In this document: positions 8,016-26,828 of the stretch, one piece after another | Position numbering within the stretch: position 1 is the first letter of the stretch | Layout of the letters: the number at the start of each line of letters is the position of its first letter | NCBI RefSeq assembly: GCF_003602005.1 | Contig: NZ_QZWD01000004.1 | Coordinates: forward strand, 1 to 64,000 | DNA length: 64,000 nt | Direction: 5' to 3' | From: Salinisphaera sp. Q1T1-3 | GTDB taxonomy: Bacteria; Pseudomonadota; Gammaproteobacteria; Nevskiales; Salinisphaeraceae | Translations under genes and position numbers: made by a program | The notes under the pieces: model-generated | The model's database searches: none | The model's input: the letters and a program-made list of their open reading frames with translations, nothing else | What the model was told of the DNA's origin: nothing

Positions 8016-8777
8016 TCAGCTCCCGGCGTTTTGGCTCAGCGCCGAATCGCTGTTTGGGGCATCGCCCTCGTCATCGCCGGCGGCCTGCTTGGTCGAGGTG
8101 TCCGTGTTCGGGCTCGCCGACGGCTTGGTACTGGTCTCGTTGTTCTTGGCGACCGGCACGTTCGGAATATCCGGATATTTGGCCAGCTGCTTCTCGTACT
8201 GCTTGATGAAGCCGTCCGGCCCATTGTCGCGGATCGAGCTGGTGTACTGACCGCGCTTGAGCGCCAGATCAGACACGCCCTTGGCGACGACATTGACGAT
8301 CTTCCACTGCCCGCCATCGTTATCGAGCACGTAGTTGATCGGGATTTCCTTGCCGTTGGAAACGATCACGGTGTTGACCTGGGAACGGCCACCCGGCGCA
8401 TCGCCGGTACTCTTGATCTTGAACGACTGATCGCTGTAGCTATCGAAGCGCGTTGCATAGGTCGCGATCGTATCCTTGCGGAACATCGCCTGATACTGCT
8501 TCTGCTGGGCCGCGCTGAGCTTGGACCACGAACTGCCCAGCGCCAGCTTGGCGATACGATTCAGATCGAAGGACTCGTCGATCACGGGGGCCAGTTTCTT
8601 GTATCGGCCCTCGAATCCGAGATCCTGGCCCTGCTTCATGGTCGCGATGAGCGTGTTGTCGAGCGTATCGACCACGTTCCTGGCCGGCGCGGCCGCTGCT
8701 GCGGTCCAGACGCCGACGCTGGCGCAGATCACCACAGCCGCGCTCAGGCCTCTCAACAGTCGAGTCACTGACTTCAT
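8016..8777 (-). CDS. hpnM: HpnM / MlaC-type periplasmic lipid-binding protein
   Basis: Belongs to the MlaC/Ttg2D toluene-tolerance family, whose members carry lipids across the periplasm. The version tied to hopanoid clusters is named HpnM. The 253-residue protein has an N-terminal signal peptide (a hydrophobic run ending AAAAA near residue 30), then the family core with SSWSKLSAAQQKQYQAMF and GQWKIVNVVAKGVSDL. The last about 45 residues are a Ser/Thr/Asp-rich, probably disordered tail. It is the last gene of the minus-strand block, and its partner is likely HpnN. The HpnM rather than MlaC name rests on context. Confidence 0.8.
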   Translation of the reverse strand: MKSVTRLLRGLSAAVVICASVGVWTAAAAAPARNVVDTLDNTLIATMKQGQDLGFEGRYKKLAPVIDESFDLNRIAKLALGSSWSKLSAAQQKQYQAMFRKDTIATYATRFDSYSDQSFKIKSTGDAPGGRSQVNTVIVSNGKEIPINYVLDNDGGQWKIVNVVAKGVSDLALKRGQYTSSIRDNGPDGFIKQYEKQLAKYPDIPNVPVAKNNETSTKPSASPNTDTSTKQAAGDDEGDAPNSDSALSQNAGS

Positions 8778-8935
8778 ACCAAACTTCCTTGTTTCACAGG
8801 CGCCGCACGGCGGGTCGATGAATATGCGGCCACTGTCTTGATCAACAACCCGAATTAGACGCTTTCGAGAATGTCTGTCTGCTGAATAACCCGACCGATC
8901 GGACGTCGGCGGCCCACCGCCAAGTTATTGATCCA

Positions 8936-23786: not shown

Positions 23787-26700
23787 TCAGACCTCGTCCG
23801 CTGTCTCGATCGTGTCCACCGTCATCGGCGACGTGGCCCCGTGCAGATTGCGATAACGCGCCAGCGCCCACATCGGGAAGTAGCGTGTGTAACCGTGATA
23901 CTTGAGATAGAACACACGCGGGAAACCCGGCGCGGTGTGCTCGGGATCGTGCCAGATGCCATCACTGGCCTGACGGGCGATCAGCCACGCCGCGCCACGC
24001 GCCAGCGCCGGTGTATCGCGCTCACCGGCTGCCATCAGGCCGAGCATCGCCCAGGCGGTCTGAAAACTGGTCGAGACATCGGCCCGGCCGCGCGGCGGGT
24101 CCCAGTAGGTGCCGTTGTCCTCGCCCCAGCTGCCGTCGGTACGCTGCATCCCCTTGAGATAGGCCACGGCCCGCTGGATCCAGTCCTGGTTCATGTCCTC
24201 ACCCAGCACTTCGAGTGCCGTCAGGACCGACCACGTGCCGTATACGTAATTGGTCCCCCAGCGACCGAACCAGGAGCCGTCCGCTTCCTGCGTGCGTTTG
24301 AGATACGCCAGCGCACGGCGGATGAACGGCCGGTCCTGCGGACGCTTGAGCAGACCGGCCAGCGTCAGGACACGCGCGGTCACATCGGCCGTGGGCGGGT
24401 CGAGCAACGCGCCGTGATCGGCAAACGGAATCGCGTTGAGATATTCGTGATTGTTATCCGAATCGAAGGCCGCGACGCCACCGTTGGCCGACTGCATACC
24501 GACCAGCCAGTCGGTGGCCCGCGTGATCGCGCGGCCATAGGTGGCATGGTCGCCGGTGTTGTACATCGCCCAGGCGATGACCGCCGTGTCGTCCAGATCC
24601 GGATAGTGATCGTTGGCGTACTGGAACGGCCAGCCACCGCCGGCCAGCTCCGGATGACCGCGGCGCCAGTCGCCGGCGCCGTCCAGCACCTGCCGGGCAG
24701 CCAGCCAGTCGAGCCCGGCGCGCACCGGCGGCGTATCGCCTTGGCCGGCCGCTTCCTGCAGCGCCAGGATACCCAGCCCGGTATCCCAGACCGGCGAGAC
24801 ACAGGGCTGCACGTTGGCCATCTCGCCGTGCTCGAAGACCAGGTCATCCAGCGCCTTGCGCTGGCTGGCCCGATAGGGATGATCGGCCGCATAGCCGAGC
24901 TCGCCCAGCGCCTCGTAGACGTTGACCATCGCCGGGAAGATGGCGCCGATGCCGTCCTCGCCGTTGAGCCGCTCGATGATCCAGGCCTCGGCCTTGCGGA
25001 TCGCGCGCTTGCGCACCATCTGCGGAATCAGCGGCTCGACGCGCCGGCCCACGGCATCCAGCCCCTTGAACAGGTGCTGCAACGGGCTGGAGACCGGCAC
25101 GAAATCGCGTTGCTGCTCCGGCGGAACCGTGAACAGTTCGCGCACGTTCACGCCGGCCGGGTTCTTGGCCATGGCCCGCAGACTGGTCAGGATGAACAAC
25201 GGCACCATCACCGTGCGCGACCAGTACGAGACCTTCGACAGGTGGAACGGCGAGATCTCCGGCATGAGCATGACCTCCACCGGAATGAAGGGCACCGCCC
25301 GCCAGGGCACCTGACCGAACTGGGCGAGCGCGATCAGGGTGAACACGTTGACCTGGCCGGCCCCGCCGCGCGCCCGGATTGCCTCGCGCGCGTGAACCAT
25401 GTGCGGCGCATCGACATCATCACCGGCCAGCTTCAGCGCGTAGTAGCACTTGACCGAACACGACAGATCCATGTCGCCGCCGTAGTACAGCGGCCAGCCG
25501 CCGTGGGCTGCCTGCTTGTGACGAATGAAACGTGCCACGCGGGCCTGCACGTCGCGATCGATATCGCCGACGAAGTGCATCATCATGATGTATTCGGCCG
25601 GGATCGTGCAGTCGGCCTCGCACTCGTAGCACCAGTGGCCGTCGCTTTTCTGCTCGGCATGCAGTCTGGATGCCGCCGCCTCGATCGCGGCCTCGAGACC
25701 GGCCGGTGGCGCGACCCGTGGGGCCTGTGCCTTGGGCATGCTGGCAATATCGTTGATCGGGGCCGCCGGATCATCGGCGAGCTTCGGCGTCAGCGCGGGC
25801 AACTCGCCGGCCGTCATGTGGAACAGATAACGCAGCCGGTCGTCGTCGGAAACCGCGAGATTGGTCGTCAATACCGTGGCCTGGACGGTGCGACGCGAAA
25901 CCTTGACCTGCGAGGCATGCGTGAAATGCGGATTCGCCTGGATCTTGCGCAGGGTCAGCAGCGCCAGGCCGATCGCCCACAGACAGAAACGCCGCATGCC
26001 CTTCTGTTCGCCGGGAATACGCAGCGTGTATTCCAGCGCGTTGCGCAGATGGCCGTGGGCCAGCCCGATCAGCTCCGACAGGCCGGCCGCGAAGGCCGGG
26101 TCATGACCGATATCGGCCATGGCGGACAGATCGTAGCCGTGGCGGGCAAAGAGATCCCGCGGCAGCCAGCAGACGCCGCGTTCACGATCGGCCCAGATAT
26201 CCTTGAGGATATTGGTCATCTGCAGACCCTGGCCGAACGATACCGCGAGCCGATTGAGCTCGGCGTCGTGCTCGCCGATTTCAGGCTCGTAATCGGTGAA
26301 CACGCTGGTCAGCATCTCGCCGACCACGCCGGCCACGAAATAACAGTAGCGATCCAGATGAGCCAGCGTGGGCAGCCCCTCGCTGGTCACCGCTCCCTCG
26401 TATTCCGGCATGCCGGCACACATGATGCGCACGCAGCGCGCGATCGCGGCCTGACGGTTCGCCCCCAGGCCGAGCGTGACGGTCAGCACATCGGCCGTAT
26501 GCGCCACGAGTCGGCGCTCTTCGTCGAGCGTGGCCGCCGACAGCTGCGGCGCCAGCCGCGTGCCGAACGCCGCCGCCCCGGCACCGCTTTCCACGACGTT
26601 GACGAATTCGGCGTGCCAGGCGGCCTTGTCGGCGCGCGCCATCTCGGCATCGTCTTCGATCGTGTCCGCGATCCGGCACAGCAGATACGCATTGCCGATG

Positions 26701-26828
26701 GCGATCCGCAGTGGCTCCGGCAACTCCGGAATGGTCAGCGCAAACGTACGCGAGACATGCGGCAGGATCTCGTCCTGAAAGGCCAGCGCGAGCCGGCCTG
26801 ACGGCGTCTGAAGAGGTGCTTGTGACAT
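23787..26828 (-). CDS. shc: Fusion of squalene synthase and squalene-hopene cyclase
   Basis: A 1013-residue protein that could take farnesyl diphosphate all the way to hopene. Residues 1 to about 360 are a squalene-synthase-type prenyltransferase: SRTFALTIPELP, DTIEDD at 55-60 as the first Asp-rich motif, then NILKDIWADRERGVCWLPRD as the second. After a Pro/Ala-rich linker, residues about 375-1013 are squalene-hopene cyclase with QW-type repeats, DLDDTA at 744-749 holding the catalytic DxDD, and full length (about 640). The frame is unbroken and domain junction residues are plausible. The ATG at 26828 has GGAAG upstream; an earlier start would add 35 unconserved residues. First gene of the block. 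No hpnC, hpnD or hpnE is present. Confidence 0.93.
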   Translation of the reverse strand: MSQAPLQTPSGRLALAFQDEILPHVSRTFALTIPELPEPLRIAIGNAYLLCRIADTIEDDAEMARADKAAWHAEFVNVVESGAGAAAFGTRLAPQLSAATLDEERRLVAHTADVLTVTLGLGANRQAAIARCVRIMCAGMPEYEGAVTSEGLPTLAHLDRYCYFVAGVVGEMLTSVFTDYEPEIGEHDAELNRLAVSFGQGLQMTNILKDIWADRERGVCWLPRDLFARHGYDLSAMADIGHDPAFAAGLSELIGLAHGHLRNALEYTLRIPGEQKGMRRFCLWAIGLALLTLRKIQANPHFTHASQVKVSRRTVQATVLTTNLAVSDDDRLRYLFHMTAGELPALTPKLADDPAAPINDIASMPKAQAPRVAPPAGLEAAIEAAASRLHAEQKSDGHWCYECEADCTIPAEYIMMMHFVGDIDRDVQARVARFIRHKQAAHGGWPLYYGGDMDLSCSVKCYYALKLAGDDVDAPHMVHAREAIRARGGAGQVNVFTLIALAQFGQVPWRAVPFIPVEVMLMPEISPFHLSKVSYWSRTVMVPLFILTSLRAMAKNPAGVNVRELFTVPPEQQRDFVPVSSPLQHLFKGLDAVGRRVEPLIPQMVRKRAIRKAEAWIIERLNGEDGIGAIFPAMVNVYEALGELGYAADHPYRASQRKALDDLVFEHGEMANVQPCVSPVWDTGLGILALQEAAGQGDTPPVRAGLDWLAARQVLDGAGDWRRGHPELAGGGWPFQYANDHYPDLDDTAVIAWAMYNTGDHATYGRAITRATDWLVGMQSANGGVAAFDSDNNHEYLNAIPFADHGALLDPPTADVTARVLTLAGLLKRPQDRPFIRRALAYLKRTQEADGSWFGRWGTNYVYGTWSVLTALEVLGEDMNQDWIQRAVAYLKGMQRTDGSWGEDNGTYWDPPRGRADVSTSFQTAWAMLGLMAAGERDTPALARGAAWLIARQASDGIWHDPEHTAPGFPRVFYLKYHGYTRYFPMWALARYRNLHGATSPMTVDTIETADEV

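Follow-up and report, generated by a model that had tools for sequence, protein, structure and literature searches.

What does a bacterium make from hopanoid genes and 2-aminoethylphosphonate (AEP) genes that lie interleaved on a single strand? The question is raised by the marine bacterium Salinisphaera sp. Q1T1-3, in which the first 64,000 nucleotides of contig NZ_QZWD01000004.1, here called the window, carry such a block at positions 8016-26828. Hopanoids are sterol-like membrane lipids and geological biomarkers, whilst many of the phosphonates predicted for bacteria have no known end product. A first-pass annotation made from the sequence had described fifteen same-strand genes that mix the two pathways, and all of them were recovered at their coordinates on the minus strand. 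In order of transcription they are a fusion of squalene synthase with squalene-hopene cyclase (SHC), hpnG, hpnN, a CDP-alcohol phosphotransferase gene (cdpPT), hpnA, a DUF2147 gene that is added here to the earlier gene list, an oxygenase gene, hpnL, a nucleotidyltransferase gene (ntp2), a pepM fusion, aepY, phnW, hpnH, hpnB and hpnM. We think it rather probable that the product is a hopanoid (bacteriohopanetetrol or a near relative being likeliest) that carries an AEP head group, in some strains hydroxylated at C1. The observations behind this concern gene content, catalytic motifs, the predicted fold of the cdpPT product, conservation, co-occurrence and joint loss.

A transferase proposed to join the two pathways

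The gene that would join the pathways is cdpPT (19716-20366, 216 amino acids, PF01066). Alignment shows its motif DHADGELARLSGAFSRLGHAYDLACD to be intact, with the family pattern DxxDGxxARx8GxxxDxxxD complete in the window and in 55 of 59 homologous frames; the four deficient frames are that of G014, a genome of the sister genus, and second paralogues at three loci (L060, L078 and L138), each beside an intact copy. These second paralogues lie in the same operon as the intact copy (L060:8536-9156, L078:8400-9164 and L138:12077-12691), with Gly at the place of the last catalytic Asp in two of them, L060 and L138. The predicted structure of the window protein (pLDDT 93.4) best matches AF2299 with bound CDP (4o6n; Z 20.0, root-mean-square deviation 2.7, 194 aligned residues). 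It shares catalytic motif and fold with both AF2299 and IPCT-DIPPS (Z 20.0 and 16.7), but differs from them in having 17% and 15% identity respectively, in the lack of a fused cytidylyltransferase and in the signature DHTDGELAR found in many cdpPT members. The model gives the reaction type and leaves the acceptor undistinguished.

The company kept by cdpPT suggests that the two pathways are connected. Genomes were drawn evenly from the class (369 in all; PepM fusion at E<=1e-170, SHC at E<=1e-50, cdpPT profile at E<=1e-30), and SHC was present in 21 of the 24 with the PepM fusion versus 33 of the 345 others (Fisher p 9e-17) or, counted by genus, in 16 of 19 versus 24 of 252. The first-pass annotation had named a want of co-conservation between the hopanoid and phosphonate sets as grounds for abandoning the idea, and on these counts the sets do travel together. 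Genomes whose best match was only another PepM-like protein (E 3e-33 to 5e-75) had SHC in 1 of 15; G434, whose match was confined to the nucleotidyltransferase domain, was excluded. Counting HpnH in addition to SHC brings little, since HpnH also occurs in 29 of the 33 SHC genomes that lack the fusion. SHC is missing from three fusion genomes: G300 and G455, an outgroup on a long branch of the PepM tree, and G399, which is 78% complete and does have HpnH.

The cdpPT profile matched 20 genomes of this draw, nine of them strongly (E<=5e-84); SHC is present in all 20 and the PepM fusion in 19. Among SHC genomes cdpPT accompanies 19 of the 21 with the fusion versus 1 of the 33 without it (p 2e-11), and it is found in none of the three fusion genomes without SHC (p 0.005, a small number). 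In the class draw cdpPT is the connecting piece, nearly confined to genomes that have both SHC and the PepM fusion. Weaker matches that fall below the threshold occur in G136, which has no SHC, and in G419, which has it.

The position of cdpPT follows the same pattern. Amongst 72 frames from 112 loci (some genomes being represented twice), with a neighbour defined as a gene on the same strand within 600 bp, cdpPT adjoins hpnN, hpnA or hpnG in 27, the oxygenase, ntp2 or phnW in 30, hpnL only in 3 and none of these in 12, and it never adjoins both kinds. In six genomes (G151, G284, G185, G387, G262 and G323) it sits at hpnN or hpnA with the pepM fusion on a separate contig. A gene placed with the genes of either pathway, and present where both exist, is as expected of a joining enzyme.

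A transferase of this kind could equally be thought to build a phosphono-glycerolipid, an analogue of phosphatidylethanolamine on diacylglycerol or similar, with the genes grouped as both lipids are made and moved together in the same membrane. The structural matches of cdpPT do include enzymes that use or yield glycerolipids, among them cholinephosphotransferases (Z 10.6-12.9) and PIP synthases, and the same module in Nostoc and Burkholderia has been named a phosphonolipid cluster (PMC5987646). However, a glycerolipid product would leave unpredicted that cdpPT is missing from class genomes without SHC when all 20 cdpPT genomes have it, that it shifts between hpn and phosphonate neighbours, and that it is absent from the (admittedly only three) fusion genomes lacking SHC. 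We therefore consider this explanation unlikely, if still worth serious attention. The co-dependence of cdpPT and SHC favours a hopanoid over diacylglycerol as the acceptor, a choice that sequence does not settle.

Conservation and joint loss in Salinisphaera

Of 14 genomes of the genus, eight have SHC and six the PepM fusion, and all six are among the eight (Fisher p 0.0097). Four of the five other module-bearing genomes (G003, G005, G010 and G013) keep the gene order of the window, and the conserved order extends beyond hpnM to idi and an HMG-CoA reductase-kinase gene; the fifth, G009, has its locus divided between two contigs. The departures from the window order consist of an extra gene next to the oxygenase gene and, in G010 and G013, an oxygenase that is broken.

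Two genomes of the genus, G001 and G007, have hopanoid genes without the module. The hopanoid locus of G001 is without cdpPT, the oxygenase, hpnL, ntp2, pepM, aepY and phnW, and neither hpnB nor hpnM was seen within the stretch fetched. G007, assembled as one contig, retains SHC, hpnG, hpnN, hpnA, hpnH, hpnB and hpnM, and in the old slots of the module it has decayed pieces of pepM (E 3e-4 and 8e-4) and phnW (E 4e-12); the oxygenase, hpnL and ntp2 gave no match at E<0.01 in the 6 kb searched. Only about 350 bp separate its hpnN from its hpnA, which leaves too little room for cdpPT. Amid the decayed pepM and phnW, aepY is still whole at 77% identity (L014:8762-9904), and other PepM-like stretches in G007 and G001 have no EDK motif. 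In G014 of the sister genus, hopanoid genes occur without a PepM fusion but with a homologue of cdpPT, which was considered as counter-evidence and rejected because its catalytic motif is broken (DG to DD, AR to AH and D to K). In these genomes the hopanoid genes outlast the phosphonate genes, and it is with the latter that cdpPT disappears or breaks down.

That hopanoid operons persist without the module in G001 and G007 would also fit two independent pathways brought into one Salinisphaera operon by chance or shared regulation. Against this, loci with at least two hopanoid neighbours lie in several branches of the PepM tree, where well-supported branches force 11 or more label changes (loci truncated at contig ends inflate this number), and the genome-wide association holds where the genes are unlinked. 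It therefore seems very improbable that the pathways are independent.

The HpnI/J/K and HpnO routes add polar groups, sugar or amino, to the C35 hopanoid, and the AEP hopanoid proposed here would likewise have a polar head group on a C35 hopanoid but one of another kind. The absence of hpnI, previously remarked upon in the block, extends to the whole window genome, in which a genome-wide search did not find it. In a comparison of four Salinisphaera genomes, which took in two of the six with the module, hpnI was in neither of the two with the module (G000 and G013) and in both of those with hopanoid genes only (G001 and G007), as if head groups were swapped. Outside Salinisphaera a general mutual exclusion of hpnI and module fails, hpnI coexisting with the PepM fusion in 7 of 22 and 14 of 23 genomes of the wider sets and occurring in 11 of the 33 SHC genomes without the fusion. 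The suggestion that AEP takes the place of the usual head group thus fits the four Salinisphaera genomes but does not carry over elsewhere.

Synthesis and activation of AEP

The genes for AEP synthesis are contiguous. PepM (13748-15382; TIGR02320, 386.3 bits, cut-off 319.6) has its phosphoenolpyruvate mutase part in residues 1 to about 290 and an NTP_transf_3 domain from residue 300. The motif that defines PepM, EDKXXXXXNS (PMC6697681), is present in the window, and E114, D115, K116, N122 and S123 are each found in 93 of 93 homologues. The phosphonopyruvate decarboxylase AepY (12588-13751, 387 amino acids) is well above its cut-off (TIGR03297, 431.3 versus 312.5 bits). The AEP aminotransferase of PhnW/AepZ type (11518-12591, 357 amino acids), with ANKCLHG at residue 189, falls just short of its own (TIGR03301, E 6.8e-107, 357.9 versus 360.8 bits).

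The earlier reading counted two nucleotidyltransferases and had a PntC-type domain activate AEP; one of the two is a separate gene, ntp2 (15424-16188, 254 amino acids), and the other is the C-terminal domain of PepM. The best PDB match of ntp2 is PntC of Treponema denticola (Tde1415, 6pd1) over nearly its full length (residues 2-251, E 7.2e-07). Replacement of Arg15, Lys25 or Lys153 reduces the activity of that enzyme to less than 10% (Rice et al. 2019, PMC6697681). In the alignment of ntp2 with 6pd1 from which equivalences were read, their counterparts are R13 (86 of 87 sequences, with one gap), K23 (87 of 87) and K160 (87 of 87), the equivalent of Glu196 is kept in 85 of 87, and Asp replaces Glu104 in 85 of 87, as Asp also does in LicC. 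At the (T/S) position of the signature GXG(T/S)RX4-8PK the window has R, and the family as a whole varies. Unlike Tde1415, ntp2 is not fused to an aminotransferase.

The domain fused to PepM was examined as the PntC and rejected, as the arginine of the pyrophosphate site in GxG(T/S)R is absent throughout: position 311 is never R in 93 sequences (G 36, E 39, A 8, N 5 and D 5), although K321 and D397 are retained in all 93. Because ntp2 keeps the PntC residues and the fused domain is without the arginine, the AEP-activating step is better placed in ntp2, which is likely the better PntC candidate on its residues; the fused domain may be inactive or altered.

Oxygenases

The halogenases BesD and HalD have HxG or HxA in place of HxD at the iron. 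The oxygenase of the block (17253-18005; PF23169, E 3.6e-13), whose start is corrected here to 18005 to give 250 amino acids, belongs to the HalD/BesD family of Fe(II)/2-oxoglutarate (2OG) enzymes, with HalD 7u6h and BesD 6nie as its best PDB matches, but it has HFD at this site and the H-x-D...H arrangement of the hydroxylase type. H141, D143 and H201 are conserved in at least 97% of 45 aligned sequences (numbering follows a 253-residue query that starts 3 codons upstream of the 250-residue frame). As the iron-binding Asp is kept, hydroxylation is likelier than halogenation. The gene is broken in S. japonica (L008) and a sister (L007), both of which keep the rest of the module, so tailoring by this enzyme seems to be optional. 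Beside it four other Salinisphaera stretches, but not the window, have a conserved frame of 350-400 amino acids (L004:6525-7700, L005:11769-12971, L007:6033-7085 and L008:12241-13293); a catalase-like identity was not borne out for it, the L008 copy matching nothing in Pfam at E<=1e-5 or in NCBIfam at E<=1e-10.

In six other class genomes (L060, L078, L094, L138, L166 and L173) a second oxygenase, of PhyH type, is found between hpnN and hpnG. The one copy scanned, L138:17189-17953, matches the methylphosphonate hydroxylase model PhnY (NF052437) at E 1.1e-53 with 182 bits, the cut-off being 500. By its sequence, this relative of a phosphonate hydroxylase within hopanoid operons suggests a separate, further link between the pathways and points to a hydroxylated head group.

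The hopanoid genes and the proposed route

The squalene synthase-SHC fusion is a single frame of 1013 amino acids (23787-26828; PF00494, PF13249 and PF13243; TIGR01507, 773 bits, cut-off 431), so that the shc gene recorded at first is present but as part of a larger protein. Curated cut-offs are also passed by HpnM, an MlaC-like periplasmic hopanoid-associated protein (8016-8777, 253 amino acids; TIGR03481, 204.7 versus 160.1 bits; PF05494), by the radical SAM adenosylhopane synthase HpnH (10247-11395, 382 amino acids; TIGR03470, 551.6 versus 225), by HpnL, a flippase-like membrane protein of the LPG-synthase-TM type (16199-17212, 337 amino acids; TIGR03476, 328.7 versus 195.65), by the hopanoid-associated sugar epimerase HpnA (18713-19714, 333 amino acids; TIGR03466, 468.4 versus 367.65) and by the RND-type transporter HpnN (20368-23001, 877 amino acids; TIGR03480, 916.3 versus 751.85), which fails the stricter model NF052374 (671 versus 1100). 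Two proteins score below, namely an HpnB-like glycosyltransferase (8936-10090, 384 amino acids; TIGR03469, E 9.9e-111, 370.4 versus 379.25 bits) and an HpnG-like adenosylhopane phosphorylase (22998-23726, 242 amino acids; TIGR03468, E 5.6e-46, 156.8 versus 187.1 bits). With the SHC, HpnH, HpnA, HpnN and HpnM models all above cut-off the block qualifies as a hopanoid operon. The remaining gene encodes a DUF2147 protein (18183-18716, 177 amino acids, PF09917).

Six junctions of the block are between -4 and +1 bp (phnW/aepY, aepY/pepM, DUF2147/hpnA, hpnA/cdpPT, cdpPT/hpnN and hpnN/hpnG) and the other eight are 10-177 bp. A hairpin with a T run predicted by a consensus scan between hpnH and hpnB (10094-10116, minus strand) may split the block into two transcripts, although terminator-like sites overall exceeded the shuffled mean in that scan (22 versus 9.4).

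From what is known of the enzyme families, the route would run as follows. The squalene synthase-SHC fusion would make hopene, and HpnH and HpnG would build the C35 side chain; PepM, AepY and PhnW would convert phosphoenolpyruvate to AEP, which the 2OG oxygenase may hydroxylate, and ntp2 would form CMP-AEP. The cdpPT enzyme would then transfer the phosphonate to a lipid alcohol, and HpnL, HpnN and HpnM would transport or position the product. A hopanoid as the acceptor, AEP as the substrate of the oxygenase and transport by these three proteins are purely what we infer.

Distribution outside the genus

When named genomes were scanned with the PepM fusion, at least 289 relatives were found and the best 80 retained; many of these loci end at contig ends. 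The 80 come from other Gammaproteobacteria, Nevskiaceae, Cupriavidus and relatives, Nostocales and a few others. A module cdpPT-oxygenase-(hpnL)-ntp2-pepM-aepY-phnW recurs among them, with aepY at 74 of the 80 loci, ntp2 at 73, phnW at 67, cdpPT at 48, the oxygenase at 45 and hpnL at 29. Hopanoid genes were found in the stretch at 29 of the 80, one of which (L090) is a weak HpnM-like match, and at least two such genes at 24. Ten loci, taken as gammaproteobacterial from their titles or a match to Salinisphaera, have at least five hopanoid genes on the pepM strand and seven Nostocales loci have hpnA and hpnH nearby, whilst SHC, taken as the part of the query separate from squalene synthase, was seen in 6 of the 80 stretches. 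At the level of the whole genome the pathways coincide far more often: in 50 of the 80 genomes SHC was found in 45, HpnH in 46 and at least one of them in 47. Some class genomes, for example G253 and G086, are also among these 50, so the two counts are not independent.

Related modules without hopanoid genes bear on a further explanation, that AEP is attached to a glycan or lipopolysaccharide and that the hopanoid linkage is a by-product of the grouping of outer-membrane genes. Bacterial phosphonate capacity is thought to serve mostly for the tailoring of the cell surface, glycans included (PMC6697681), and hopanoid-less modules adjoin glycan-type genes, with matches to CDP-glycerol glycerophosphotransferase at L089 and to O-antigen ligase at L132. 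However, cdpPT was not seen at either of those loci, and in the window block Pfam finds no transferase of LicD or TagF type, only cdpPT and the HpnB glycosyltransferase. A glycan as the carrier of AEP in the block accordingly appears improbable.

Evidence against a phosphono-hopanoid

A number of observations weigh against an AEP-bearing hopanoid and are brought together here. All the links are genomic and no lipid has been seen; co-inheritance could reflect a shared physiology, that of two membrane lipids, with no covalent product. The acceptors of enzymes with the cdpPT fold are varied, and the structural model does not discriminate between them. Furthermore 11 of the 20 class cdpPT matches are of a second type (E 4e-36 to 2e-60, with DRADG, DRMDG or similar), and some of this type have no neighbour from either pathway.

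The correlations also have exceptions. In the class, G300 and G455 have the PepM fusion but neither SHC nor HpnH, G253 and G419 have the fusion and SHC with no cdpPT match at E<=1e-30, and G098 (75% complete) lacks the fusion but has both cdpPT and SHC. Of the 50 named genomes, three (G058, G076 and G082, all metagenome-assembled) have neither SHC nor HpnH; their PepM sequences form a clade of their own with L099 (support 100). The long locus of one of these assemblies, L089, has no cdpPT but does have matches to a 60 kDa inner-membrane-protein family besides the glycerophosphotransferase, and cdpPT was not seen in the loci of G058, G076, G082, G300 and G455, two of the five loci being only 5-6 kb. 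A draw of 279 genomes from the phylum adds few true cdpPT: 3 of 12 matches are strong, one of them the window genome, and all three are with SHC. Of the nine weaker matches (E 4e-33 to 2e-16) seven are in SHC genomes; the seven of the nine that were read show 28-36% identity and look like another family.

At the level of the locus, 51 of the 80 had no hopanoid gene in the stretch examined, and in Cupriavidus (which has none beyond the L090 match) and at most Nostoc loci the module lies away from hopanoid genes. The set itself leans to near relatives, since the queries came from hopanoid-linked loci and only the best 80 of at least 289 were kept. Finally, the hpnN-hpnA gap of G007 holds two cdpPT-like pieces in the right order that are individually not significant (E 0.2-0.84), so the loss of cdpPT in that genome rests on the shortness of the gap instead.

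Known clusters

Neither the module nor the idea of a terpene-phosphonate is new. A phosphonolipid cluster of a lichen Nostoc with a Burkholderia counterpart is given in the Fig. 7 legend of a 2018 paper (PMC5987646), adapted from Yu et al. 2013, and shares with the Salinisphaera block the CDP-alcohol phosphatidyltransferase, 2OG-Fe(II) oxygenase, NTP transferase, pepM, ppd, AEP aminotransferase and hpnL; the Nostoc loci L031 and L034 carry this set except hpnL. The terms "hopan" and "squalene" are absent from the main text of that paper, whereas the Salinisphaera module is set within a hopanoid operon and has a cdpPT that goes with SHC. For Roseomonas a linkage of pepM to a hopene cyclase gene led to the proposal of "an undiscovered terpene-phosphonate" (PMC8776678, 2021). 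This is the same pairing of marker genes but in Alphaproteobacteria, and sections 14 and 20 of that paper give no gene order, transferase or co-occurrence statistics. A literature search by title and passages, with subscription literature mostly outside its reach, found no report of a phosphono-hopanoid. New within the literature searched are the interleaving of the two gene sets in one operon, in Salinisphaera as in other Gammaproteobacteria, the systematic dependence of cdpPT on the two pathways together, the joint loss, the reassignment of PntC to ntp2 and the second oxygenase slot.

Neighbouring genes and related frames

Genes of the mevalonate pathway and a farnesyl diphosphate synthase flank the block on either side, a neighbourhood which is also kept in relatives. 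On the plus strand at 2927-7290 of the window are a class II HMG-CoA reductase fused to mevalonate kinase (761 amino acids), a gene like that of phosphomevalonate kinase, scoring below cut-off, and a NUDIX gene read as IDI. In the four loci read (L046, L138, L139 and L140) phnW and hpnH are separated by a gene on the opposite strand that was read as DXS, and a DXS query (L139:4966-6861) matches 14 of the 80 named loci, placing isoprenoid precursor supply next to the block there too. The SHC-bearing frame measures 1016-1049 amino acids in all 10 SHC genomes of the window's family and 1072-1073 in G052 and G081 (Nevskiaceae); a literature search by title found no publication on such a fusion.

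Upstream of the module L034 (2996-4660) and 15 other loci of Nostocales type have a B12-binding radical SAM protein with DUF4070. It was considered as a hopanoid methylase, but only mixed NCBIfam matches were obtained (PhpK, HpnJ and HpnR), far below their cut-offs. In family f204, which is alphaproteobacteria-like with its class inferred, frames of 354-451 amino acids (L147-L153) have a CDP-alcohol phosphotransferase domain after an extra N-terminal region in the three that were read; eight genomes carry such a frame, seven of them with SHC, and one contig of G563 (L171) has such a frame and SHC about 7 kb apart.

Implications

Beyond Salinisphaera, we hold it to be an evenly balanced proposition that there is a widespread class of hopanoids, aminoethylphosphono- or 1-hydroxy-aminoethylphosphono-bacteriohopanetetrol, made in Gammaproteobacteria, Burkholderiales and Nostocales by way of a dedicated CDP-alcohol phosphotransferase. 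If so, this class would be a bacterial analogue of sterols with a zwitterionic head group that contains a carbon-phosphorus bond, and the phosphonate cluster of Nostoc and Burkholderiales, so far defined by sequence only, would gain a product. Methods of hopanoid extraction may then overlook a polar class, and part of the biological phosphorus held in carbon-phosphorus bonds would sit in triterpenoids.

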